A DNA stretch of 64,000 nt from Gallaecimonas sp. GXIMD4217 (GTDB taxonomy: Bacteria > Pseudomonadota > Gammaproteobacteria > Enterobacterales > Gallaecimonadaceae): positions 1,427,236-1,491,235 of the forward strand of contig NZ_CP149925.1 in assembly GCF_038087665.1 (NCBI RefSeq), in the 5' to 3' direction. The position numbers were made by a program, and so were the translations under genes. Below the pieces are notes generated by a model that saw nothing but the letters and a program-made list of their open reading frames with translations, did not search any database and was not told where the DNA came from. Of the stretch, positions 2,761-16,413 are shown in pieces. Within the stretch, counting starts at the first letter, position 1; every line of letters begins with the position of its first letter.

Positions 2761-3399
2761 TCAGGCATAGGCGTCCAGGCTGGTGCCTTCCACCTCGGCC
2801 ACCTGCCGGACGGCCGGTCGCCTGGCCATGGCCCTCAGGTAGCGGCCCAGGTGTTCGAACGACAGGGGCGGCCGCGTAAAGCCGCTGGCCCAATGGGACA
2901 GCATGAACAGGAAGAAGTCGCACAGGCTGGGCTGGCTCCCCAACAGGAAGTCTTTGCCGGCCAGCTCCCGGTCGATCAGCGCGAACATCTCGGTAACGCG
3001 CTGCTCCTGGGCCTGCTTGATGGCGTCGGCACCGTCCGTGGCCAGGGTGTGCCGGCCGGGGTAGAAATACAGCATCAGCTCCGGCTGGATGGCGGTGGTG
3101 AGGTAGAACAACCACTGGTAGAAGACCGGGCGCCGGGGATCGCCGACCTCCGGTACCAGATTGGCCTGGGGGTGGCGGTCGCACAAATGCAGGCAGATGG
3201 CCGCGCTCTCGAAAATGACCTGGTCGCCCTCGGCCAGGGTCGGGATCCGGCCGGTGGGGTTGAGCTTCAGGTAGTCCGGCGACTTCTGGGCCTCGGACTT
3301 GCGGTCGACCAGCACCAGCTCGTAGTCGGCGCCGATCTCCGCCAGCACCATGTGCGGCGTCCAGCTGGCGTTGCGGGGGTAGTAGAACAGCTTGTACAT
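2761..3399 (-). CDS. Glutathione S-transferase family protein
   Basis: The 212-residue protein has the thioredoxin-like N-terminal GST domain (MYKLFYYPRNASWTP, then LKLNPTGRIPTL and the glutathione-binding motif ESAAICLHLCD near residue 65) and an all-helical C-terminal domain with SLCDFFLFML near residue 155. It should conjugate glutathione or act as a peroxidase in the cytoplasm. Ser12 in the NASWTP segment is the likely glutathione-activating residue. The start at 3399 follows GGAG; an alternative ATG at 3414 would add MTETQ and overlap the upstream gene's end. Confidence 0.85.
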   Translation of the reverse strand: MYKLFYYPRNASWTPHMVLAEIGADYELVLVDRKSEAQKSPDYLKLNPTGRIPTLAEGDQVIFESAAICLHLCDRHPQANLVPEVGDPRRPVFYQWLFYLTTAIQPELMLYFYPGRHTLATDGADAIKQAQEQRVTEMFALIDRELAGKDFLLGSQPSLCDFFLFMLSHWASGFTRPPLSFEHLGRYLRAMARRPAVRQVAEVEGTSLDAYA

Positions 3400-3410
3400 C
3401 TGAGTCTCCG

Positions 3411-3773
3411 TCATAAGCGGTCGCACCGGCGCAACGGTGCCTGGGCAGCGGCATAGATCCAGCAGGTACGGCCGGACTGGAGCCTGGCCGGGATCCGTTG
3501 GTAGTCGTCGACCTCGTAATCATCGGCGCGGGCAAGCTCTTCGTCGGTCAGCTCGAACACCGTGCCCTCGACAAAGTCCGACGCCTTGCCGGTGAACCTG
3601 AGGATCGGATGCACGTCCTTGCCGCTTTCCCGGAGCACCCTTTCATCGGTGATCCTGATCTTGTCGACCACATAATTGGGCAGCCGATCCTTGTCGCCGC
3701 TCAGCAGGCGGCCGAAGTTGGCAAGCTGGACGTCTTCCTGTTGCAAAGTCCCGTAGGAAAACAGCAGCGGCAT
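3411..3773 (-). CDS. Gamma-glutamylcyclotransferase-like (AIG2 family) protein
   Basis: A 120-residue protein starting MPLLFSYGTLQQ, the signature YGTL motif of the gamma-glutamylcyclotransferase/AIG2 fold that binds the gamma-glutamyl group. The EGTVFELTDEELARADDYE segment near residue 68 supplies the conserved acidic residue region, and LDxYE-like DDYE is also present. It may cleave gamma-glutamyl amines or related compounds. It sits between an acetyltransferase gene and a GST gene, overlapping the alternative GST start by a few bases, so the three probably formed an operon before the IS inserted upstream. Confidence 0.8.
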   Translation of the reverse strand: MPLLFSYGTLQQEDVQLANFGRLLSGDKDRLPNYVVDKIRITDERVLRESGKDVHPILRFTGKASDFVEGTVFELTDEELARADDYEVDDYQRIPARLQSGRTCWIYAAAQAPLRRCDRL

Positions 3774-4862: not shown

Positions 4863-5250
4863 GGTCGGGATGCTCGGCGAACCCGGTGATGCTGCCGACG
4901 ACCTCGAAACCAAGCTTTTGATAGAAGGCCGGCGCCTGGAACGACAGGGTGTCCACCTGCGCCGCCACGCAGCCGCGCTCGATGGCCTCGGCTTCGGCCA
5001 GTGCCATCACTTTGCTGCCGAGCCCCGTGCCCCTGCTTGCCTCGTCTACCCAGAGCACGTCGATCAAAAAGTGCATGGAAAAGGTTTTGCCGGACAGGCC
5101 GCCGATCAGCTTTCCGGACGCATCGCGAGCCACCACGGAAAGCGGTTTGGGCGCTTCGCTCCCCAGGTGCTCGGCGTTGTGCTCCCGGACACCGGCGACG
5201 AGCGCGTCGAAAACCGCGTCGTCCCTTTCGTTGATGACGTCAATTTGCAT
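4840..5250 (-). CDS. GNAT N-acetyltransferase with C-terminus replaced by an IS
   Basis: The 136-residue protein has the GNAT fold: SVVARDASGKLIGGLSG, then IDVLWVDEASRGTGLGSKVM (acetyl-CoA loop RGTGLG near residue 80) and APAFYQKLGFEVVGSI near residue 110. The IS903-like element enters after codon GFAEHPDR, so translation continues into the IS right end and stops after six foreign residues (RCFPNR). Joining the left flank restores HPDRYFLLKRY and a stop at 3778. Only about seven terminal residues differ, so the enzyme may still fold, but its transcript no longer runs straight into the downstream genes. Confidence 0.85.
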   Translation of the reverse strand: MQIDVINERDDAVFDALVAGVREHNAEHLGSEAPKPLSVVARDASGKLIGGLSGKTFSMHFLIDVLWVDEASRGTGLGSKVMALAEAEAIERGCVAAQVDTLSFQAPAFYQKLGFEVVGSITGFAEHPDRRCFPNR

Positions 5251-5314
5251 CACAAGCTTTCCCGTCGTGTATAAAGTGCCCTGGTATCGCCACCTTGTGG
5301 CTTGGCTGGAATAT

Positions 5315-5513
5315 TCACGTTGTATGCCCCTCTCGGTATTCCTTGCGCCAACGGGACAACAGGAAGGGGTGAATATCCATCGCCTCGGCAATACTTTGAC
5401 TGAGCGGCGGGCCTTACTGGCTCCACAATACGGCCTTGACCTTGAATTCAACGCTGTATTGCCGGGTACTTTTTCCTGTCTTGTAAGCGGGCACCGTCAA
5501 CTTCTTTGGGTGC
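5315..5513 (-). pseudogene. Degenerate IS3-family orfA remnant
   Basis: Read in shifting frames on the minus strand, this stretch gives pieces typical of the helix-turn-helix orfA of IS3-family elements: STRQYSVEFKVKAVLWSQ, then (after a stop and frameshifts) SVK, IAEAMDIHPFLLSRWRKEYR. Two frameshifts and one stop show it is dead, and no orfB or terminal repeat was seen. It separates the acetyltransferase gene from the integron cassette region and may mark the edge of the accessory island. Confidence 0.65.
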
Positions 5514-5523
5514 TAGCGATGCG

Positions 5524-5574
5524 TGTCCGTTCAAGCTGGTGAGGTCTAAATTACTCTTAAATGCTTTGTTATGC
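5524..5574 (-). other. Truncated attC site of the TIR cassette
   Basis: On the minus strand the TIR gene's stop codon is followed by the inverse core site GCATAAC (5568-5574) and then AAAGCATTTAAGAGT, the kind of left arm seen in Vibrio-type attC sites. The inverse core is the exact complement of the cassette's own start, core GTTATGC at the copy-1 IS junction (6360-6363 plus lost GTT). The right half of the attC is missing, replaced by the IS3 remnant region, so this cassette could no longer be excised. Confidence 0.65.
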
Positions 5575-6329
5575 TACCAATGATTTGGCGTCGTATCTTT
5601 AAATAGAATTGTTGCAGCCCCTTTTCGAGAAGGAATATACCCCCACTCTTTGGCTGCAACCTCAATATATTTTAGTGCCGACCCTTTTACCAACCCAAGC
5701 TCTCTGTCAACATCTGAATATTTGATTGCTGCTGTATTATCACTGCTGTGACGTTGCCCCATCCATGATTGAATAAGAGAGATGCAATCATTTTCATCAT
5801 CAATGAGATGAGAATCATCTGCCTCTTTAGTGGAAATTTCAGTTTGAGAAACATTATGTTTAGAAGAAGATTTTCCTCCCAGCTTGGCAATTGATTTGTT
5901 TATTCGATTGCAAGCTGGCCCTAACGATGCAACTAAGTTGCCATCTTGTCTTTCAGCATCAAATGTTGCGGGAGTAATTCCTAGCAAATCTGTAGGCAAA
6001 TGAAAATCTTCATGGCCTCGGGGAATAACAACGAAACTACGTTCCCGGCCTAGCCCCCCAACGAATAAGCCAAGTTCAAATACGACGTTGTCACGAACGG
6101 TTTTCTTGGGTTCGCCTCGTAACTGCGTTATGTCATCAGGAGAAAAAACAAACAAACCAAAGTCCGAGTCATCGAGGGCGTCCATAAGAGATTCCATTGT
6201 ATATTTGCTCAACTCAAATACACCTTGAGACCATACAGTAACTTCTACTGAGTGTTCTAAGTTTTCTTGAATAGCATAAGCAACATCCAAGTTTTCGACA
6301 GATGAGCCAATAAACAACCTAGGCTTCAT
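5574..6329 (-). CDS. TIR-like nucleotide-binding effector (CAP12/Pycsar TIR type) with C-terminal winged-helix-like domain
   Basis: The 251-residue protein starts [20 protein letters not shown] and carries the TIR-like fold of the predicted nucleotide-binding family that includes Cap12 (TIR-STING) and Pycsar TIR effectors. Key motifs are [16 protein letters not shown] (30s-40s), [14 protein letters not shown] (53-66) and [20 protein letters not shown] (78-97), whose Glu85 matches the catalytic glutamate of NAD-cleaving members. A polar linker (about 150-180) leads to a helical C-terminus with a [10 protein letters not shown]...[14 protein letters not shown] pattern like a winged helix. It is AT-rich, follows a strong ribosome binding site (AGGGGAAG) and forms an integron cassette. 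Role in phage defence by NAD depletion is inferred. Confidence 0.75.
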
Positions 6330-6363
6330 ATCTTCCCCTTACTAAAATTGTCGGTGGTAGCAT

Positions 6364-6714
6364 AGACATAATGATTCCCTGTGCAAGTGTCGGCCTCCGG
6401 TGTTTTATCGTGGATTAGTCAGACCAGAGCCACACTGTTTGTTGTAGGCACAAACATCACAGGAGGCCGACATGTCTAAAGCTAACACACTTTTCATCGG
6501 GTTGGATGTACACAAGGAAACCACTGACGCCGCATGGGTTTCAGATCAATTGGGAGAGGCGGTGCAATATCATGGCACCATCCTCACCAACATCCGCTCT
6601 TTTGGTAAACTTATTAAGAATCAATTAGCCAAAGCCACCAAACTATGCGTGATCTACGAGGCAGGGCCTTGTGGCTTTTGGCTATATCGCTATCTGCAAC
6701 GGCGCGGCGTTGAG
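6364..6714 (+). mobile_element. Truncated IS110-family (IS1111-type) element, copy 1
   Basis: The first 351 bp of the element at 7664-9169 are repeated here with about six mismatches, at a constant offset of 1300 bp: the left end AGACATAATGATTCCCTGT, the 109-bp leader and the first 81 codons of the transposase. Identity stops abruptly at 6714, next to the MITE-like element. The left end abuts ATGC of a core site (GTT/ATGC) that begins the TIR cassette, so this copy also entered an attC core. The right end is lost. Confidence 0.85.
6472..6714 (+). pseudogene. IS110 transposase fragment
   Basis: Codons 1-81 of the DEDD transposase, beginning MSKANTLFIGLDVHKETTD and retaining the first catalytic Asp and Glu (IYEAGPCGF). 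The intact copy has Val where this one has Ala at residue 24 and Asp where this one has Gly at residue 46. The frame continues past the break to 6882 through MITE sequence, adding 55 unrelated residues, so the open frame of 136 codons is a chimera and not a working enzyme. Confidence 0.85.
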
Positions 6715-6716
6715 AT

Positions 6717-7056
6717 CGTAGGTTGGGATGAGAAACGAATCCCAACATCACTACCTAAGCTTTACTTCCCGAAATCCGAACCAGCCTCCAAACCGGTGGC
6801 GCCGCTTCACATGAGCAAAAGATCGAGCGAAGCGCCTCGACGTGATCGACCAGCAGAGTTTGACTACGCTTGGCCAGATTGACCATAAAAAAGAATTTCC
6901 CTCCGCCAGCCGTAAACGTCGATAGCGCATATCATTTCCGTGTGACGCAATACGTTCAGAGCAGGGGATAGTCCGCCGATAGGATTGAGTTACGAATGAT
7001 TATGACATCCTTCCTATTACAACCATGTTGGGATTCGTCCCTCATCCCAACCTACG
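6717..7056. repeat. 340-bp MITE-like element with hairpin-forming inverted ends
   Basis: The two ends are 32-bp inverted repeats of each other with two mismatches (6717-6748, starting CGTAGGTTGGGATGAG, and 7025-7056). Each end is itself a hairpin, GTTGGGAT paired with ATCCCAAC around a short loop. The interior has no credible gene. No target duplication was found: left flank GAGAT, right flank GGCTGG. The element joins a truncated IS110 copy to a truncated cassette gene, so it may have mediated a deletion. Such end sequences resemble widespread small palindromic repeats mobilised in trans. Confidence 0.7.
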
Positions 7057-7092
7057 GGCTGGATTTAGACGTTGATTAAGATTCTCATTCAT
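7057..7092 (-). pseudogene. First 12 codons of a fourth cassette gene, cut by the MITE
   Basis: After the probable core site at 7096-7102, the minus strand opens with ATG at 7092 and reads MNENLNQRLNPA before entering the MITE-like element, where it stops within five codons. The position, directly behind an attC, is where a cassette gene should start. The rest of the gene and its attC are gone. Because only 12 codons remain the call is tentative. Confidence 0.4.
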
Positions 7093-7095
7093 AAT

Positions 7096-7155
7096 GCATA
7101 ATGCCTTTAGCAGAGGCGCAGCTTTGCTGCGTCCTGCTGGCTAAACTTGTTAGGC
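7096..7155 (-). other. attC site of the kinase cassette (60 bp)
   Basis: On the minus strand the site runs from the inverse core GCCTAAC (7149-7155), through AAGTTTAGCC, a hairpin with arms AGCAG..CGCAGC and GCTGCG..CTGCT around AAA, to GGC and the core-like ATTATGC (7096-7102). The length of 60 bp is typical of short attC sites. The inverse core exactly complements the GTTAGGC that starts this same cassette, as expected for a genuine cassette. The core has A instead of the usual G at its first base, so recombination there may be weak. Confidence 0.75.
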
Positions 7156-7649
7156 ATGGCCGCTGCTATAGCGCTTAGTTGTTTGGCGATGTCAGATTTT
7201 GAGCCATTATTAATAATGGTATTAACCTGAGAACTTGGTTGTTCAAAGTCTTGATTTAGTGCCTTCGCACTGGATGCGCTAATACCAGCCGTCCTGTCCG
7301 AAAGCCTTTTCAGTATTAGTGCCTCACTAGATTGGACATAGACTAACTCTATGTCAGAGATATTTGAGGCTAGGTAATCTCGGTGTCGTCGTTTATAAGC
7401 ACCTTGTGTTACAACAATGCGCCGGTGAATTTTCTGTAATTTCATTATTTTCTCGGCGATTATTGTGAAATACCGATCTCTCATGTCATTGGTAAACGGC
7501 CTGCTTTCGCTTAAGGCGATCTTCATCTCTTCAATCAAGTCCTCATCCGCGTGGTAAACATACCAACCTAGAATCTCCCCGATAAAGTCACCGATATAGG
7601 ACTTCCCTGTTCCAGATTTACCGAACAAGAATAATACTAAAGAATCCAT
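7107..7649 (-). CDS. P-loop kinase (shikimate/gluconate kinase-like), integron cassette gene
   Basis: A 180-residue protein with an N-terminal Walker A motif, FGKSGTGKS (residues 9-17), followed by an acidic HADEDLIEEMK (34-44) like the substrate region of gluconate and shikimate kinases, an R-rich KIHRRIVVTQGAYKRRHRDYL core and a lid-like LILKRLSDR segment. It probably phosphorylates a small molecule or nucleoside; the substrate is unknown. The ATG lies 14 bases after the cassette start TTAGGC with no clear ribosome binding site. The gene's end overlaps the attC, and its codon use is AT-rich like the other cassettes. Confidence 0.7.
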   Translation of the reverse strand: MDSLVLFLFGKSGTGKSYIGDFIGEILGWYVYHADEDLIEEMKIALSESRPFTNDMRDRYFTIIAEKIMKLQKIHRRIVVTQGAYKRRHRDYLASNISDIELVYVQSSEALILKRLSDRTAGISASSAKALNQDFEQPSSQVNTIINNGSKSDIAKQLSAIAAAMPNKFSQQDAAKLRLC

Positions 7650-7771
7650 CGTTTTGTATGCCTAGACATAATGATTCCCTGTACAAGTGTCGGCCTCCGG
7701 TGTTTTATCGTGGATTAGTCAGACCAGAGCCACACTGTTTGTTGTAGGCACAAACATCACAGGAGGCCGAC

Positions 7772-8899
7772 ATGTCTAAAGCTAACACACTTTTCATCGG
7801 GTTGGATGTACACAAGGAAACCACTGACGTCGCATGGGTTTCAGATCAATTGGGAGAGGCGGTGCAATATCATGGCACCATCCTCACCAACATCCGCTCT
7901 TTTGATAAACTCATTAAGAATCAATTAGCCAAAGCCACCAAACTATGCGTGATCTACGAGGCAGGACCTTGTGGCTTTTGGCTATATCGCTATCTGCAAC
8001 GGCGCGGTGTTGAGTGTTGGGTCATTGCTCCGGCACTTATTCCGAAAGCGCCTGGCGACAAAGTGAAAACCGACAAGCGCGACGCCATGACCTTGGCGCG
8101 TCTGGCCCGCAGTGGTGATTTACAGCCTATCTACGTCCCGGATGAGCGGGATGAAGCTATTCGCGACCTTATTCGTTGCCGGGAAGACGCCATGCTGGAC
8201 CTGCGTCAGGCCCGGCAGAGACTCAAATCTTTCCTGCTACGTCACGGTCACCCATGTTCGGGCAGGCAGAACTGGACCGAGGCCTATCGTCGCCATCTGG
8301 CCGACATCAGCTTTGCAGAGCCTGCCAGTAAAATCACCTATCAGCATTACATCAATATCGTCACCGAACGGTATGAACGCTTGCAGCGGCTGGAGCTTGA
8401 GCTGCAGACCCTGGCCGACTCGTGGCGCTGGTACCCGTTGGTGCAAAGACTGACGGTACTCAGGGGGATCCGCTTCCTCTCGGCCGTCACCTTGGTGGCC
8501 GAGCTTGGAGACTTGCGCCGCTTTGCTTCCCCCCGATCCCTGATGAACTTTGTGGGTTTGACGCCCGCTGAGCACTCGAGTGGTCAGCGGGAGTGGCGGG
8601 GAGGCATCACCAAGTGCGGCAACAGCCACGCCCGACGAATATTGATTGAAGCCGCCTGGGCTTACCGTTTCCCGCCGAAAGTATCGCGAGAGTTGGAAAC
8701 ACGGCAGCAAGGGCATTCCATCAAGCTGCAGAGTCGCTCCTGGGAGATCCAACAACGATTATGCGGGCGATTCCGTGCACTCAAGGCCCGGGGCAAGGAG
8801 TACAACAAAGTGGTCACGGCCGTCGCCCGGGAACTAAGTGGTTACCTCTGGGAGCTGGCACAAGACTTTGACGTGGATTTGCCACGGGTTAGTTGCTAA
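7772..8899 (+). CDS. IS110 family DEDD transposase (bridge recombinase)
   Basis: The 375-residue protein has the RuvC-like DEDD domain at its start (Asp in FIGLDVHK, Glu in IYEAGPCGF, the pair of Asp in KTDKRDAMTLARLARSG) and the C-terminal Tnp domain with LRGIRFLSAVTLVAELGDLRRF and LTPAEHSSGQREWRGGITKCGNSHARR, where the conserved catalytic serine lies. A ribosome binding site (AGGAGG) precedes the ATG. It is intact. Enzymes of this family use a structured RNA from the element to choose donor and target DNA. Confidence 0.92.
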   Translation: MSKANTLFIGLDVHKETTDVAWVSDQLGEAVQYHGTILTNIRSFDKLIKNQLAKATKLCVIYEAGPCGFWLYRYLQRRGVECWVIAPALIPKAPGDKVKTDKRDAMTLARLARSGDLQPIYVPDERDEAIRDLIRCREDAMLDLRQARQRLKSFLLRHGHPCSGRQNWTEAYRRHLADISFAEPASKITYQHYINIVTERYERLQRLELELQTLADSWRWYPLVQRLTVLRGIRFLSAVTLVAELGDLRRFASPRSLMNFVGLTPAEHSSGQREWRGGITKCGNSHARRILIEAAWAYRFPPKVSRELETRQQGHSIKLQSRSWEIQQRLCGRFRALKARGKEYNKVVTAVARELSGYLWELAQDFDVDLPRVSC

Positions 8900-9169
8900 C
8901 TCCAGGGGCGCAATAGATACACACTGACGGTTGTGGGTGGCGGCAGCGGTGAGAGCAATCCTCGAGGGCGTTAAGCGGTGACATCCGCGCTCCTAGACTG
9001 AGGCAAGGCTCCAGCGGCGCAAACAAGTAATGCGGTTAAAATCCGCGGATATCAGCAAGGTCAACCGCCGACACTTACTTGCCAAAGCCCAGCCGCCAGT
9101 GTGACCTTACCGGGCTTATCTAATTCTCGGTAAGGCTATCTTTGTCTATTTGACAAAGGGAATCATATC
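8900..9169 (+). ncRNA. Candidate bridge RNA region of the IS1111-type element
   Basis: The 270 bp between the transposase stop and the IS right end hold no reading frame but have several short complementary stretches, for example CTCGAGGGCGTTAAGCGG and GGTAAGGCTATC near CTTACCGGGC. In IS1111-group elements the recombinase's guide RNA is encoded in this long right end, so the position fits. The stretch GAGGGCGTTAAGCGG resembles the GGGCGTTAGGC target core and could be a guide segment. The RNA boundaries and fold were not determined. Confidence 0.4.
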
Positions 9170-9269
9170 AACGCCCGCCTCAACTGCCGGAGGCTGCTGG
9201 CGCCTTTTGTGCGGTTTTTGCACAAAAGGTGACAGTGGCCGGAGGTCAGATTGCAGGCGCTTGTTAGAT
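9170..9269 (-). other. attC site of the helical-protein cassette, interrupted by the IS
   Basis: On the minus strand it runs from inverse core ATCTAAC (9263-9269) through a long imperfect hairpin (CACCTTTTGTGC pairing with GCACAAAAGGCG, plus CTCCGGCC with GCCTCCGG) to GAGGCGGGCGTT (ending 9170). The last four core bases AGGC lie at 7660-7663 on the other side of the inserted IS. Inverse core ATCTAAC exactly complements this cassette's own start GTTAGAT at 10000-10006. The gene's TAA stop overlaps the inverse core. It is a canonical attC of about 105 bp once the IS is removed. Confidence 0.88.
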
Positions 9270-9983
9270 TTTTTCTTCAACAATCTCAAAGCCAGTTTGT
9301 AGTAGCAATTTATGGGCAGCCAAGAATTGAATTTTTACAATTTCAACCTCTTCGAGAATGTCCTTACCGTATAAATCTACTTTTAACATCATCATTTCAC
9401 GCAATGTTTCAAAGAGTAGCCAAACATGAAGCTGATAAAGGCTTCTAGAGATTTCATTGTGATATTTAGGTTGAGGCGAAACTCCTTTGACCTCTCCGTT
9501 TTCAAACTTATTCACCAGATCTAATAATATATTTATGTTTGAAGGGTGCGATATATCATTAAGTTCACCGTAAATACGTTGTGAACCGGCAGGTGCATGC
9601 TTTACATTTGGTGTAACTTTAGGCTTTGCTTTGCCAATCTTAACTTCATTAACTCGAGTTATTATTTCGTAGTCCTGTTTTAAACAAGCAGCCGCTTTAA
9701 TGTATTGGCCTTCACTTATTAATGATTCTGTGTATGAAATTCCTTGAATCAACGAAATTAACAATATTAATCTATCTGAGTTAGATTCATTAGTTTCTCC
9801 AGGCACACATGCTCGGAAATTTAGGAGTAAATTGATACTAGAAATAAGCATCAACCTACAATCTAACCATTCTTGTTCATAACCCAGTTTAGAAGCTTCT
9901 CTGATCTCATCTCCTGTTTGAACAATAAGTCCTTCAAGATTACATCCACCGGCTATAAATTTTTCGATCTCTTCGTAATTCAC
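9264..9983 (-). CDS. Hypothetical helical protein, integron cassette gene
   Basis: The 239-residue protein starts at GTG 9983 behind a ribosome binding site (AGGAAAG). It is predicted mainly helical, with acidic N-terminal helices, a central RLILLISLIQGISYTESLISEGQYIKAAAC segment and a polar YGELNDISHPSN motif near residue 139, then long helices to the end. The E/D-x-S-H-P motif recalls helical bundle proteins of toxin or abortive-infection type, but no family is firmly recognised. It is AT-rich and cytoplasmic by appearance, and is the first cassette of the surviving array. Confidence 0.6.
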   Translation of the reverse strand: MNYEEIEKFIAGGCNLEGLIVQTGDEIREASKLGYEQEWLDCRLMLISSINLLLNFRACVPGETNESNSDRLILLISLIQGISYTESLISEGQYIKAAACLKQDYEIITRVNEVKIGKAKPKVTPNVKHAPAGSQRIYGELNDISHPSNINILLDLVNKFENGEVKGVSPQPKYHNEISRSLYQLHVWLLFETLREMMMLKVDLYGKDILEEVEIVKIQFLAAHKLLLQTGFEIVEEKI

Positions 9984-9999
9984 TAAACTTTCCTAAAAA

Positions 10000-10006
10000 A
10001 TCTAAC
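10000..10006 (-). other. Core recombination site starting the cassette array
   Basis: GTTAGAT on the minus strand (ATCTAAC on plus) fits the integron core GTTRRRY except at its sixth base and is the exact complement of the inverse core at the far end of the same cassette. To its right should lie either attI or the end of another attC. The bases there (ACAATACAGC) do not form an obvious attC, so this may be the array's attI-proximal edge. Confidence 0.65.
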
Positions 10007-12914: not shown

Positions 12915-13823
12915 GTGCAGGACGTCAGCTGGGATGACTTGAAGATTGCCTACCAGGTGGCCAGGCTGGGCTCGCTCAGCAAGGCCGGTGCCCACCTGGG
13001 TATCAACCATGCCACCGTGCTCAGGCACATCAACGCCCTGGAGGAAGGGCTGGACTGCAAGCTGTTCATCCGCCACCAGCGGGGCTACCGGCTCACCGAG
13101 GCCGGGCAGCTGATGCTGAGCCAGATGCCGCCCATACTGGCGCAGATCGGCCGGCTGACCCATGCGGTGGCCAGTGTCGACAACCAGATCACCGGCACCC
13201 TGAGGATCACCACCTTGCCGGAGTATTCGGCCTTCCTGCACCCGGTGCTCAAGGAATGCCGCGAGGCCTACCCGGAACTGCGCATCCAGGTCCTGGCCAC
13301 CGACGAGGTGCTGTCGCTGAGTTCGGGGGCCGTGCATGTGGCGATCCGGGCCGGCTGGGAGCCGGACGGCGCCGACCTCATCGTGCGCAAGCTGCTGGAC
13401 ATCCGCTTCGGCTACTACGCGGCGCGCACCTATGTGGCGCGCTTCGGGCTGCCGGCCAGCAAGGCCCAGTACCGGCGCCACCACTGGATCCTGCCCAGCG
13501 GCCACAAGCGCAACATCCCCTTCGTCAAGGCCATGCTGGCCAACCTCAGCGAAGAGAACATCGCCTACCAGAGCAACAACTTCTCCGATATCCAGTCGGC
13601 CATCGTCGCCGGCCTGGGGATAGGCCCCATCGACCGCGACAAGGCCCGGGCCCTGGCGGATCTCACCGAGATCAAGACCGGTCCGGAAAGCCAGGACAGC
13701 GCGCTCTGGTTCGCCTACCACCGGGATCTCAAGGGCAGTGCCCGGGTCCAGGCCCTGTACCGGATCCTGACCGGCTACATCGCCCGGCAGCAGGGGCAGC
13801 CGCGCGCCCAGGCGTCCGGCTAG
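12915..13823 (+). CDS. LysR family transcriptional regulator
   Basis: A 302-residue LysR regulator. The N-terminal winged helix-turn-helix (DLKIAYQVARLGSLSKAGAHLGINHATVLRHINALEEGLDCKLF) is followed by a linker helix and a substrate-binding domain with LSSGAVHVAIRAGWEPDGAD near residue 135 and a FSDIQSAIVAGLGIGPI segment near residue 225. GTG at 12915 is the start, behind AGGGAG. It is transcribed away from the monooxygenase/aminotransferase pair and probably controls it. The effector is unknown. Confidence 0.9.
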   Translation: MQDVSWDDLKIAYQVARLGSLSKAGAHLGINHATVLRHINALEEGLDCKLFIRHQRGYRLTEAGQLMLSQMPPILAQIGRLTHAVASVDNQITGTLRITTLPEYSAFLHPVLKECREAYPELRIQVLATDEVLSLSSGAVHVAIRAGWEPDGADLIVRKLLDIRFGYYAARTYVARFGLPASKAQYRRHHWILPSGHKRNIPFVKAMLANLSEENIAYQSNNFSDIQSAIVAGLGIGPIDRDKARALADLTEIKTGPESQDSALWFAYHRDLKGSARVQALYRILTGYIARQQGQPRAQASG

Positions 13824-13881
13824 GGCCGCAACACCACCGGCTTCGGTTCCATGTGCCTGTCTACACTTGAAAAGGTCATAG

Positions 13882-14892
13882 GTGAGGACGATCAGGCGGA
13901 TGCCCCAGCAGCACTATTGCCAGCCCCAGCGGCAAACCAAGAGCGACAACAGCCTGCGGCGGGTGGGCTTTGAACTGGAGTTCGCCGGGGTCGAACTCAA
14001 GGCCGCCGCCTGGGTGCTGGCCCGGACGTTGAATGGCCGGGTCTGCCCGCTGTCGGAGGCGGAATACCAGGTCCATTGCGACGATCTCGGCACCTTCAAC
14101 ATCGAGCTGGACTGGACCCTGGCCAAGGATCTGGCCAGGCAGCGCCAGGCCGAGCGGCCGGGCCAGGAGGATCCGGTGATGGAGCTGGTGACCTGGATCT
14201 CCAGCCAGCTGGTGCCCATCGAAGTGGTGTGTCCGCCGCTGCCCCTGGACCGGCTGCACCTGCTCGACCCCCTGGTGGCCAGCCTGCGCGAGGCCGGTGC
14301 CCAGGGCACCGAGGAGTCCCTGCTGTACGCCTTCGGCGTCCATATCAATCCCGAGCTGCCGGCCCTGGACGCCGATACCATCACCGGCTACCTGCAGGCC
14401 TTCATCCTGGCCCAGGACTGGCTCATCAAGCGCCACAGGGTCGATCCGGTCCGGCGCATCACCCCCTATATCGACGCCTTCCCCGAGGACTATGCGCTCA
14501 GGGTCAGCCGCTACGAGGGCAACCTGGATCTGGCCCAGCTGATGGACGACTACCTCTGGTTCAACCCCACCCGCAACCGGGCCCTGGATCTGCTGCCGCT
14601 GTTCAAGCACCTGGACGGGGACAGGGTGGCGGCGACCCTGGACGACCCCAGGATCAAGGCCAGGCCCACCTTCCATTACCGGCTGCCCAACTGCGAGATA
14701 GAAAAGCCGGGCTGGTCGCTGCACCAGGCCTGGAACCTGTGGTGCGTCATCGAACACCTGGCCTGCCACCACGGGCAGCGCCGTCGCCTGCTGGGGCAAT
14801 GGTGGCAATACCAGGGCAAATGGACGGGACTTTCCGAAAAACCATGGCACAAGGCACTGGACCAACTGCACCAAGACCTGTTGTCGGCGTGA
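13882..14892 (+). CDS. Amidoligase (glutamine-synthetase-like fold)
   Basis: The 336-residue protein resembles the amidoligase enzyme family, glutamine-synthetase-related ATP-dependent ligases thought to make amide bonds on novel metabolites or peptides. Visible are RRVGFELEFAGVEL (28-41) with the paired glutamates expected to bind metal, DDLGTFNIELD near residue 67, a VELVTxxLVPIEVVCPPLP-like segment near residue 95, FGVHINPELP near residue 153, and the C-terminal HHGQRRRLLGQWWQYQGKW. Its 3' end overlaps the next gene by 49 bp. The first ATG used lacks a strong ribosome binding site; the second ATG, six codons on, is possible. Confidence 0.75.
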   Translation: MRTIRRMPQQHYCQPQRQTKSDNSLRRVGFELEFAGVELKAAAWVLARTLNGRVCPLSEAEYQVHCDDLGTFNIELDWTLAKDLARQRQAERPGQEDPVMELVTWISSQLVPIEVVCPPLPLDRLHLLDPLVASLREAGAQGTEESLLYAFGVHINPELPALDADTITGYLQAFILAQDWLIKRHRVDPVRRITPYIDAFPEDYALRVSRYEGNLDLAQLMDDYLWFNPTRNRALDLLPLFKHLDGDRVAATLDDPRIKARPTFHYRLPNCEIEKPGWSLHQAWNLWCVIEHLACHHGQRRRLLGQWWQYQGKWTGLSEKPWHKALDQLHQDLLSA

Positions 14893-15548
14893 CCGGCAAC
14901 CACAGGCGCTTTTCACCGGCCTGGCTCTGCATCCGGCTGTCGGTGTTCCTGGCCGGGGGCAGGGCGGTGCGGATCAGCATTCGCCACCAGGTGGATCTGA
15001 AGCAGGTGGAGGCCCTGGTGATCAGCGGCGGCGACGATATCCATCCCGCCCTCTACGACGAGGCTATCCCCCCCCACGACCGCTACGACGAGGGCAGGGA
15101 CGAGCTGGAGCTGCACCACATCGAATATGCCCTGGCCAAAGGCCTGCCGCTGCTGGGGATCTGCCGCGGCGCCCAGCTGCTCAACGTGGCCCTGGGCGGC
15201 AGCCTCTACGCCAATATCCGCAGGCTGCGCCACCACACCTCCAACAGGCCGACGCCACTGCCGCGCAAGACGGCCCTGCTGGTGCCGGAGTCGCGGCTGC
15301 ACCGCATCCTGGGCGTCCGGCGGGTGCGCATCAACAGCCTCCATTACCAGGCCATGGATCAGGTGGCCAGGGCCCTGGCCGTGTCGGCCCGGGATTACGA
15401 CAACTTCGTGCAGGGGGTGGAGCACAAGGGCGGCCTGCCCTGGCTGGGGGTGCAGTGGCACCCGGAATATCTTTTCTACCAGAAGGAGCAGCGCCGGCTG
15501 TTTCGCTGGCTGGTGGCCCAGGCCCTGCACAGGCGGCGCCGATGCTGA
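14844..15548 (+). CDS. Class I glutamine amidotransferase-like hydrolase (peptidase C26 family)
   Basis: A 234-residue member of the gamma-glutamyl hydrolase / PuuD-like GATase family. It starts MAQGTGPTAPRPVVGVTG, then has ALVISGGDDIHPALY (58-71), the nucleophile elbow GICRGAQLLN with Cys107, and GVQWHPEYLF with His206 and Glu208 completing the triad. The ATG at 14844 lies inside the amidoligase gene and is chosen because PVVGVTG is the family's first strand. It probably hydrolyses a gamma-glutamyl amide, reversing or processing the amidoligase product. Its stop overlaps the next gene's ATG. Confidence 0.85.
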   Translation: MAQGTGPTAPRPVVGVTGNHRRFSPAWLCIRLSVFLAGGRAVRISIRHQVDLKQVEALVISGGDDIHPALYDEAIPPHDRYDEGRDELELHHIEYALAKGLPLLGICRGAQLLNVALGGSLYANIRRLRHHTSNRPTPLPRKTALLVPESRLHRILGVRRVRINSLHYQAMDQVARALAVSARDYDNFVQGVEHKGGLPWLGVQWHPEYLFYQKEQRRLFRWLVAQALHRRRRC

Positions 15549-15976
15549 GCTACCTGCTGCTGTTCGCCTCGGCCTTCCTGGCCGCCACCATATTGCCGTT
15601 CTACTCGGAGGTGGTGCTCTACGCCCTGATCCGCCAGGGCGAGCCGGGCTGGGCCCTGGTGGTGGTGGCCTCGGTCGGCAATACCCTGGGGGCTGTGGTG
15701 AACTGGGCGCTGGGACGCTACCTGCTGCATTTCCAGGACAGGCGCTGGTTCTATTTCAAGCCGGCCCAGGTCGAAAAGGCCCAGGCCTGGTTCCAGCATT
15801 ACGGCGTCTGGACCCTGCTGCTGGCCTGGATGCCGCTCGGCGGCGACGCCCTGACCTTTATCGCCGGGGTGATGAAGGTGCGGCTGTCGCTGTTCGTGGT
15901 GCTGGTGGGCATCGGCAAGACCGCCCGCTACGTGGCGGTGCTCTGGCTGGCCCAGGCAGGGTTGCTGGGGATATGA
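15542..15976 (+). CDS. DedA/YqaA-like SNARE-associated membrane protein
   Basis: The 144-residue protein has about four hydrophobic segments and the pattern FYSEVVLYALI, VASVGNTLGAVVNWALGRY and WFQHYGVWTLLLAWMPLGGDALTFIAGVMKV typical of short YqaA-type members of the DedA family, which are proposed lipid or ion transporters of the inner membrane. The ATGCTGA overlap with the amidotransferase-like gene indicates translational coupling, so it is the third member of the amidoligase operon and may move a substrate or product. Confidence 0.85.
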   Translation: MLSYLLLFASAFLAATILPFYSEVVLYALIRQGEPGWALVVVASVGNTLGAVVNWALGRYLLHFQDRRWFYFKPAQVEKAQAWFQHYGVWTLLLAWMPLGGDALTFIAGVMKVRLSLFVVLVGIGKTARYVAVLWLAQAGLLGI

Positions 15977-15979
15977 AAA

Positions 15980-15998
15980 AGGCCGCGTGATGCGGCCT
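15980..15998. terminator. Terminator between convergent genes
   Basis: AGGCCGC, loop GTGAT, GCGGCCT, with an A run on the left that gives a T-run when read from the right. It best serves the minus-strand gene at 16009-16413 and can also end the plus-strand amidoligase operon. Confidence 0.75.
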
Positions 15999-16008
15999 CA
16001 AAGGGGTA

Positions 16009-16413
16009 TCAGTTCAGGTACCAGGTGCCGTCGATAAGCTTGGCCCTGATCCGGCGGTATTCAAACTCGGCGGGCAGGTTGAAATAGTCGGCGCCGGCAA
16101 ACTGACCGTTGGTGCTGAAGTAGGCGGGTTTTTGCTGCTTGATGTACTTGAAGGCCGCCAGGGTGTTCTGGCGGGAGCTTGCCATCTTCTTCAGAAAGGC
16201 CTGCCATTTACGGGGGAAACTTTTCCTTTCCCGCTGGTAGCGGGGAAAGAACAGGGCCTCCTTGCCTTCAAAGTTGCCTGTTTCCAGGACCTGGATGTAT
16301 TCATCTATCTTCTTGGGCAGTTGCGCCTTGAGCGCTGCTACGTCGAGCTCCTGGCCGAAAGCCAGGCCGGGCAGTGCCAGCAGCAACACGAGCAGGTATT
16401 TGAGCATCTTCAT
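16009..16413 (-). CDS. Small exported protein of unknown function
   Basis: A 134-residue protein with a clear signal peptide (MKMLKYLLVLLLALPGLAFG, cleavage after AFG) and a basic, aromatic-rich mature part: a helical QLPKKIDEYIQVLETGNF segment, RYQRERKSFPRKWQAF, and a C-terminal strand region ending IDGTWYLN. It looks like a small periplasmic domain, perhaps related to lumazine-like or DUF4878-type folds ending in GxWY, but no firm family is recognised. A good ribosome binding site (AAGGAAGG) precedes the ATG. Confidence 0.65.
   Translation of the reverse strand: MKMLKYLLVLLLALPGLAFGQELDVAALKAQLPKKIDEYIQVLETGNFEGKEALFFPRYQRERKSFPRKWQAFLKKMASSRQNTLAAFKYIKQQKPAYFSTNGQFAGADYFNLPAEFEYRRIRAKLIDGTWYLN

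Follow-up and report, generated by a model that had tools for sequence, protein, structure and literature searches.

A three-gene cassette of Gallaecimonas sp. GXIMD4217 pairing an amidoligase and a PuuD/SpuA-like hydrolase with a YqaA-type membrane protein: a candidate for reversible gamma-glutamyl amide chemistry

In the genome of Gallaecimonas sp. GXIMD4217, the stretch of 64,000 nucleotides considered here as the window (contig NZ_CP149925.1, positions 1,427,236 to 1,491,235) contains three genes overlapping head to tail, as follows (positions are those of the window).

13900..14892, + strand: Amidoligase_2 (PF12224) gene, amide ligase of predicted glutamine synthetase (GS) fold, 330 aa (Pfam, structure model, alignment)
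14844..15548, + strand: Peptidase_C26 gene, predicted PuuD/SpuA-like gamma-glutamyl hydrolase, 234 aa (Cys107, His206, Glu208)
15542..15976, + strand: YqaA-type (COG1238) VTT/DedA membrane protein gene, 144 aa (Pfam VTT)
14844..14892, + strand: overlap of the ligase and hydrolase genes, 49 bp
15542..15548, + strand: overlap of the hydrolase and membrane protein genes, ATGCTGA, 7 nt

The three overlapping genes are present as the initial annotation described them, and the Pfam families are matched. The ligase open reading frame opens with a GTG at 13882, but the ATG at 13900 is preferred as the start because it fits the aligned relatives and is the choice of a codon-based gene caller. The hydrolase frame extends from the ATG at 14844 to the TGA ending at 15548, a start picked by agreement with relatives, the codon-based caller alone favouring 14943, and the membrane protein gene starts at the ATG at 15542. 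Scanning positions 13700-16100 gave no promoter-like site and a single terminator-like stem on the minus strand (15979-15999), both results being at chance level. Relatives were obtained by a scan of genome contigs, which gave 160, the best 80 being retained, so that the set leans to close kin; genes at these loci were called with the codon-based caller, which missed 3 of 195 known genes. Both enzyme genes are present at 76 loci, the window and the identical sequences L004 and L081 all being counted. With starts chosen by script, 22 of these loci show a ligase/hydrolase overlap of exactly 49 bp and 23 one of 28 bp, and of 36 hydrolase/YqaA junctions 19 overlap by exactly 4 bp, an overlap of 7 bp being found only in the window. 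Since exact overlap lengths recur across loci, the gene overlaps are not due to chance.

The ligase belongs to the Amidoligase_2 family, with 221.8 bits against PF12224 (cut-off 22) over positions 3-244 of a profile of 245; it is the one Amidoligase_2 protein of the genome, and no NCBIfam family matches it. Upon re-alignment of structures, its model (pLDDT 92.2) matches GS and plant glutamate-cysteine ligase (GCL) with Z 11.2-12.3 over 193-242 residues, each of the 50 matches listed being a GS or GCL entry, and the modelled fold is of the glutamine-synthetase type. Foldseek alone gave weak matches to GS/GCL (lowest E 0.013, with no match reaching 0.001), a PDB sequence search returned no relative of the ligase (the single row up to E 10 being an unrelated phosphorylase at E 0.93), and an hhalign comparison with PuuA (probability 0.6%, E 0.09, 23 columns) was too weak for residue mapping. 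Residues E25 and E27 are kept in 79 of 80 aligned rows, the remaining row being gapped, and E69, D71, E108, H148, N150, R185, R225, R227, R255, H259 and R261 in all 80; judging from their order, these acidic, histidine and arginine positions may correspond to the catalytic residues of GS. Such an enzyme would be predicted to form amides at the expense of ATP, and its acid, judging from the partner enzyme and the fold, would be glutamate.

The second protein scores 153.8 bits against PF07722 (Peptidase_C26) and 56.8 bits against the Pfam GATase family, and its triad, namely C107, H206 and E208 within ICRG and WHPE motifs, is found in 75 of 75 aligned rows. Five proteins of the genome match the C26 profile, the four besides the cassette hydrolase with 26-37 bits. 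The structure model (pLDDT 92.4) lies nearest to lin1909 (Z 29.9), PuuD (Z 29.8) and SpuA (Z 27.6-29.5), at 28-34% identity and some 8 Z units nearer than the other matches listed, among which the glutaminase domains of ADCS, CTPS and GMPS reach at most 21.7; one SpuA entry among the matches listed is titled as a glutamyl-thioester. The stretches NSLHxQ and DxGRD are common to this hydrolase and E. coli PuuD, and the score against the PuuD equivalog NF008471, 60.9 bits, is well under the cut-off of 266. In PHROGs, the hydrolase alone of the three proteins finds a match, the best being annotated as glutamine amidotransferase.

The third protein exhibits a single VTT domain (PF09335, 52.7 bits), is 44% identical to E. 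coli YqaA over 133 columns and shares with it the residues E23, D102, K126 and R129, invariant in an alignment of 37 rows, E. coli YqaA included. With 34.3 and 22.4 bits against NCBIfam UptA equivalog cut-offs of 300 and 250, respectively, the protein is YqaA-type (COG1238) and not UptA-type; it is one of two VTT proteins of the genome. According to a published analysis, COG1238 is found in a majority of species in several Gram-negative clades, is reported as essential in several Pseudomonas species with a function reported as not known, is kept apart from the undecaprenyl-phosphate flippases and is suggested to comprise movers of uncharged or positively charged lipids (PMC10127716). As for the identities originally given to the two partners of the ligase, the GATase-like, gamma-glutamyl-type hydrolase holds as a C26 protein with its triad kept and is narrowed by structure to the PuuD/SpuA type (Z 27.6-29.9), and the DedA-like membrane protein holds as VTT/DedA and is narrowed to the YqaA branch; the active-site residues, the loss of which had been named as telling against the reading, are present in the 80 ligase and 75 hydrolase aligned rows.

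Regarding distribution, the hydrolase gene adjoins that of the ligase in 73 of the 80 loci (best 80 of 160), the loci devoid of it being L020, L067, L071, L072, L073, L079 and L039, the last of which ends at a contig edge. The YqaA-type gene lies downstream in 34 of the 80, following gaps of 323 and 128 bp in L014 and L030, and is not found downstream in 46, a count that takes in L022 and L039, both truncated at contig ends. Going by record titles, all three genes occur together in Aliiglaciecola, Zooshikella, Catenovulum, Motiliproteus, Microbulbifer, Sedimenticola, Aestuariicella, Vibrio, Imhoffiella, Methylobacter, Oceanimonas and Ketobacter as well as in metagenome-assembled genomes (MAGs), and the check originally proposed, i.e., conservation of the three genes together elsewhere, is borne out by these counts. 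Of 369 genomes drawn evenly from the class, 18 have the ligase, that of Gallaecimonas sp. GXIMD4217 included; the other 17 provide 18 loci, with the hydrolase gene adjacent in 17 (all except L112) and the YqaA-type gene adjacent in 6, one of them only a fragment (L099). Closer by, the ligase is present in none of four other genomes of the genus and in 3 of 40 relatives searched, own genome among them; as the flanking M2 peptidase has no match in the four congeners, a cassette-empty site could not be placed there. Ligase relatives are also encoded on 11 plasmid records, where, among 7 examined, an annotated hydrolase gene adjoins that of the ligase in 3 and an annotated YqaA-type gene does so in none, L115 having a DedA family protein 3 kb downstream in an incomplete gene table. 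The ligase tree mixes families, with Halieaceae in several places and a contig of a Desulfomicrobium MAG among gammaproteobacteria, which speaks for horizontal transfer. On a quick ligase tree, the presence of the third gene requires 14 changes; with shuffled labels, the mean is 26, and none of 500 shufflings is as low.

Among 65 YqaA proteins placed in a quick tree, a branch with an SH-aLRT of 93, under the starred level of 95, separates 45 operon-type proteins, i.e., 40 linked copies and 5 non-adjacent copies from ligase-bearing genomes, the window copy being on that side, from 20 others, of which one (L164) comes from a ligase-bearing genome (G401). With a profile (model A6) derived from E. 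coli YqaA and linked copies, scores of at least 190 bits are reached in 10 of the 17 ligase-bearing class genomes and in none of 61 ligase-free genomes of a smaller draw, whose membership of the 369-genome draw was read from identifiers; the corresponding Fisher value of 1.5e-8 ignores relatedness, and the 190-bit line was drawn after the scores were seen, on a model made from linked copies, and is blurred by intermediate scores of 168.7, 161.4 and 148.9 bits. Operon-type copies are set apart from the hydrolase gene by intervening genes, at a distance of some 2.2 kb, in G388 and G293, and on a contig separate from the cassette in G111 and G184; in G285, the cassette copy has been shortened by internal loss (L180 4055-4282) and an intact copy is found elsewhere, on another contig (L175 3858-4292). 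At 190 bits, 7 of the 17 ligase-bearing genomes are without an operon-type copy, which, like the intermediate scores, argues against a strict tie. The operon-type consensus keeps the stretch LLHFQDRRWFYF, whereas E. coli YqaA lacks seven of its residues. Pairwise distances of the three proteins co-vary over 36 loci (Mantel r 0.91, 0.82 and 0.86, none of 2000 permutations being as high), a correlation that shared ancestry alone would also produce. Taken as a whole, the third gene is a dedicated partner of the ligase/hydrolase pair and a newly defined third member of it. In E. coli K-12 (L085), yqaA lies directly upstream of gshA, encoding another gamma-glutamyl ligase, with yqaB also beside it; a general tie between YqaA and gamma-glutamyl ligases is not supported as a rule, since 1 of 29 VTT loci (L139, class sample) had gshA within about 1.5 kb.

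The surroundings of the cassette were surveyed over up to three genes per side at 43 loci, one per genus as judged from titles and several from MAGs; genes of up to 900 aa lying wholly within a locus and open reading frames of at least 60 aa gave 229 neighbour proteins, 227 of which were scanned. Flanks differ between genera and can be shared within a genus or family (Pseudidiomarina, Salinisphaera, Halieaceae), and the commonest families, among the best 25 of 173 and of 134 in the two halves of the survey, are GGDEF (3 of 115) and cNMP_binding (4 of 112), most others appearing once or twice. As the flanks differ between genera and no listed family exceeds four per half, the cassette looks self-contained. 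A wider conserved neighbourhood was considered and set aside, the listed families occurring at most four times in a half among the 227 neighbour proteins.

Several local associations were observed besides. In Halieaceae (L049, L053, L067, L070-L073 and L079), the ligase gene lies downstream of, and in the same direction as, genes for an RND pump and a membrane-fusion protein, and is followed by a small DUF3144-like gene; five of these loci (L067, L071-L073 and L079) are without the hydrolase. Genes for CsbD-like and other small stress-type proteins lie near the cassette in L042, L048, L050, L052 and L055 (Salinisphaera-type) as well as in G388 and G293 (L173 and L174), CsbD being assigned by Pfam in L042 and the rest by cluster or by eye, and a formate/nitrite transporter recurs near the cassette in Salinisphaera and Dinoroseobacter shibae. 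Within the window, the GC content is 0.39-0.49 in four of the five 1-kb steps of 5000-10000, compared with 0.59-0.69 from 10 kb onward, and an IS110-type transposase is encoded at 7772-8899, with a shorter frame of the same beginning at 6472-6882. Located some 4 kb upstream of the cassette, this region resembles a mobile island in its low GC and IS110-type genes. The same low-GC stretch encodes on the minus strand (5574-6329) a TIR-domain protein of the CAP12/Pycsar effector family (PF10137, 114.6 bits), which also matches the PADLOC TIR effector and PycTIR models. Farther off, 10 kb upstream of the cassette, a gene for a GGACT/AIG2-like gamma-glutamyl cyclotransferase (3411-3773, minus strand) adjoins one for a glutathione S-transferase (2761-3414, minus strand). 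For the cassette itself, a role in anti-phage defence was set aside, no PADLOC model matching any of the three proteins, as was a phage origin, a tblastn search of 50,697 phage records having given no match at E 0.001; in viral contigs, none of 40 pattern matches was confirmed.

Pairs of this kind have precedents. In 2009, Iyer et al. reportedly described proteobacterial Amidoligase_2 proteins paired with a GATase-like thiol peptidase, and the present ligase and hydrolase agree with such pairs in ligase family, kind of partner, head-to-tail arrangement and proteobacterial host; the window differs in adding an overlapping gene for a dedicated YqaA-type protein, and its partner enzyme goes structurally with PuuD and SpuA. 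In Firmicutes, amidoligases are partnered by AIG2/GGACT enzymes, as given in the Pfam description; there too the ligase is paired with an enzyme splitting gamma-glutamyl amides, albeit of another fold, the GGACT gene of the window lying outside the cassette. The E. coli Puu pathway likewise employs a GS-type ligase (PuuA) and a C26 gamma-glutamyl-amide hydrolase (PuuD), but the cassette comprises no oxidase or dehydrogenase, its ligase has no usable sequence similarity to PuuA and its hydrolase stays far under the PuuD equivalog cut-off. In puu and related pathways, a GS-like ligase is followed by oxidation steps and then by a C26 hydrolase (PMC9397018). A catabolic role is not apparent for the cassette because, unlike in puu, no oxidase or dehydrogenase comes between ligase and hydrolase. 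More distant amidoligases of phages are in print, including a phage gene set where an amidoligase occurs with glutamine amidotransferase, glutathione synthase and GGCT (PMC10945688, PMC6209634). The open-access literature, with most subscription journals outside it, yielded no paper joining an amidoligase to DedA or to a gamma-glutamyl-gamma-aminobutyrate hydrolase, and the third partner may be described elsewhere. The cassette is well conserved; its ligase/hydrolase pair is of a known kind and the dedicated membrane partner travelling with it is the newer part.

The reading proposed here, to which we give about an even chance, is that the three genes form a self-contained cassette that spreads horizontally and serves a reversible amide chemistry, of gamma-glutamyl or a similar acyl group, with a membrane step. 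With ATP, the ligase would link a small-molecule amine to glutamate, or to a similar acid, through the side-chain carboxylate; the PuuD/SpuA-like hydrolase would split such an amide via a Cys107 thioester; and the dedicated YqaA-type protein would carry either the conjugate or the amine in its free form through the inner membrane, a step that would keep joining and splitting from being futile. Since a lone ligase and hydrolase would form a futile pair unless parted in time or space, an overlapping membrane protein gene offers a plausible reason for the arrangement. We infer that both enzymes act on one shared molecule and that the membrane protein transports it. Gene structure, protein families, modelled enzyme folds, active-site residues, overlaps and co-occurrence speak for the cassette; against the reading stand the five Halieaceae loci, L020 and L112, where the ligase comes without the hydrolase, the 7 of 17 ligase-bearing genomes without an operon-type YqaA and the 46 of 80 loci with no such gene found downstream, the missing oxidase or dehydrogenase, the weak Foldseek and hhalign matches of the ligase, and the lipid cargo suggested for COG1238. 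The initial annotation, which had suggested an unknown peptide or metabolite and a transport step, is thus partly supported: families, active-site residues and co-occurrence are substantiated, and the product, its peptide nature and its transport stay at the level of proposal.

In another reading, the ligase may tag a peptide or protein with an amino acid or other tag that the C26 enzyme removes, the membrane protein serving as anchor or exporter; to go by the title of Iyer et al. (2009), modification of peptides and proteins has been proposed for amidoligases as a group, and C26 is formally a peptidase family, but no small peptide family recurs beside the cassette (227 neighbour proteins, open reading frames of at least 60 aa, matches listed) and the closest structural counterparts of the hydrolase are enzymes acting on small gamma-glutamyl amines, so that this explanation is held unlikely. 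A short precursor could have been missed, since frames under 60 aa were absent and the families are the best 25 per half. Alternatively, the C26 protein could be a glutamine amidotransferase subunit passing ammonia to the amidoligase within a tight complex and yielding a primary amide. The conserved overlaps, suggestive of coupled translation, and the GATase score of 56.8 bits would fit such an arrangement, which is nonetheless set back by the structural comparison (Z 27.6-29.9 with lin1909, PuuD and SpuA versus at most 21.7 with ADCS, CTPS and GMPS, among the matches listed) and appears improbable; being nearer to PuuD, SpuA and lin1909 than to glutamine amidotransferase domains, the modelled enzyme has hydrolysis of gamma-glutamyl amides, rather than ammonia supply, as its likelier role.

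Were the YqaA-type gene a hitchhiker with a housekeeping lipid function unconnected to the amide chemistry, its not being found downstream in 46 of 80 loci, the missing operon-type copy in 7 of 17 ligase-bearing genomes and the position of E. coli yqaA beside yqaB and gshA would be in keeping; the grouping of 40 linked and 5 non-adjacent copies on one side of a branch (SH-aLRT 93) and the finding of no copy of at least 190 bits in 61 ligase-free genomes make this just as improbable as an ammonia-supplying partner. Because members of COG1238 are suggested to be lipid movers (PMC10127716), the cargo can be conceived in two versions, namely a small gamma-glutamyl amine or a changed lipid. In the latter, glutamylation by the cassette would be directed at a lipid-linked amine or at the amine in the head group of a membrane lipid. 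Here the ligase would add the acyl group on the inner face, the YqaA-type protein would flip the product and the C26 enzyme would reverse the modification; we regard this version as a shade more doubtful still, and a small gamma-glutamyl amine is favoured as the cargo of the YqaA-type protein.

Were the lipid version true, it would provide a first substrate for the COG1238 branch of DedA proteins and tie GS-type chemistry to lipid flipping. Returning to the favoured reading, the cassette would offer a defined test bed for the amidoligase family, reportedly predicted in 2009. The tie of a YqaA subfamily to a single ligase and a single hydrolase makes the substrate of such a membrane protein testable, the product of the ligase being the expected cargo.
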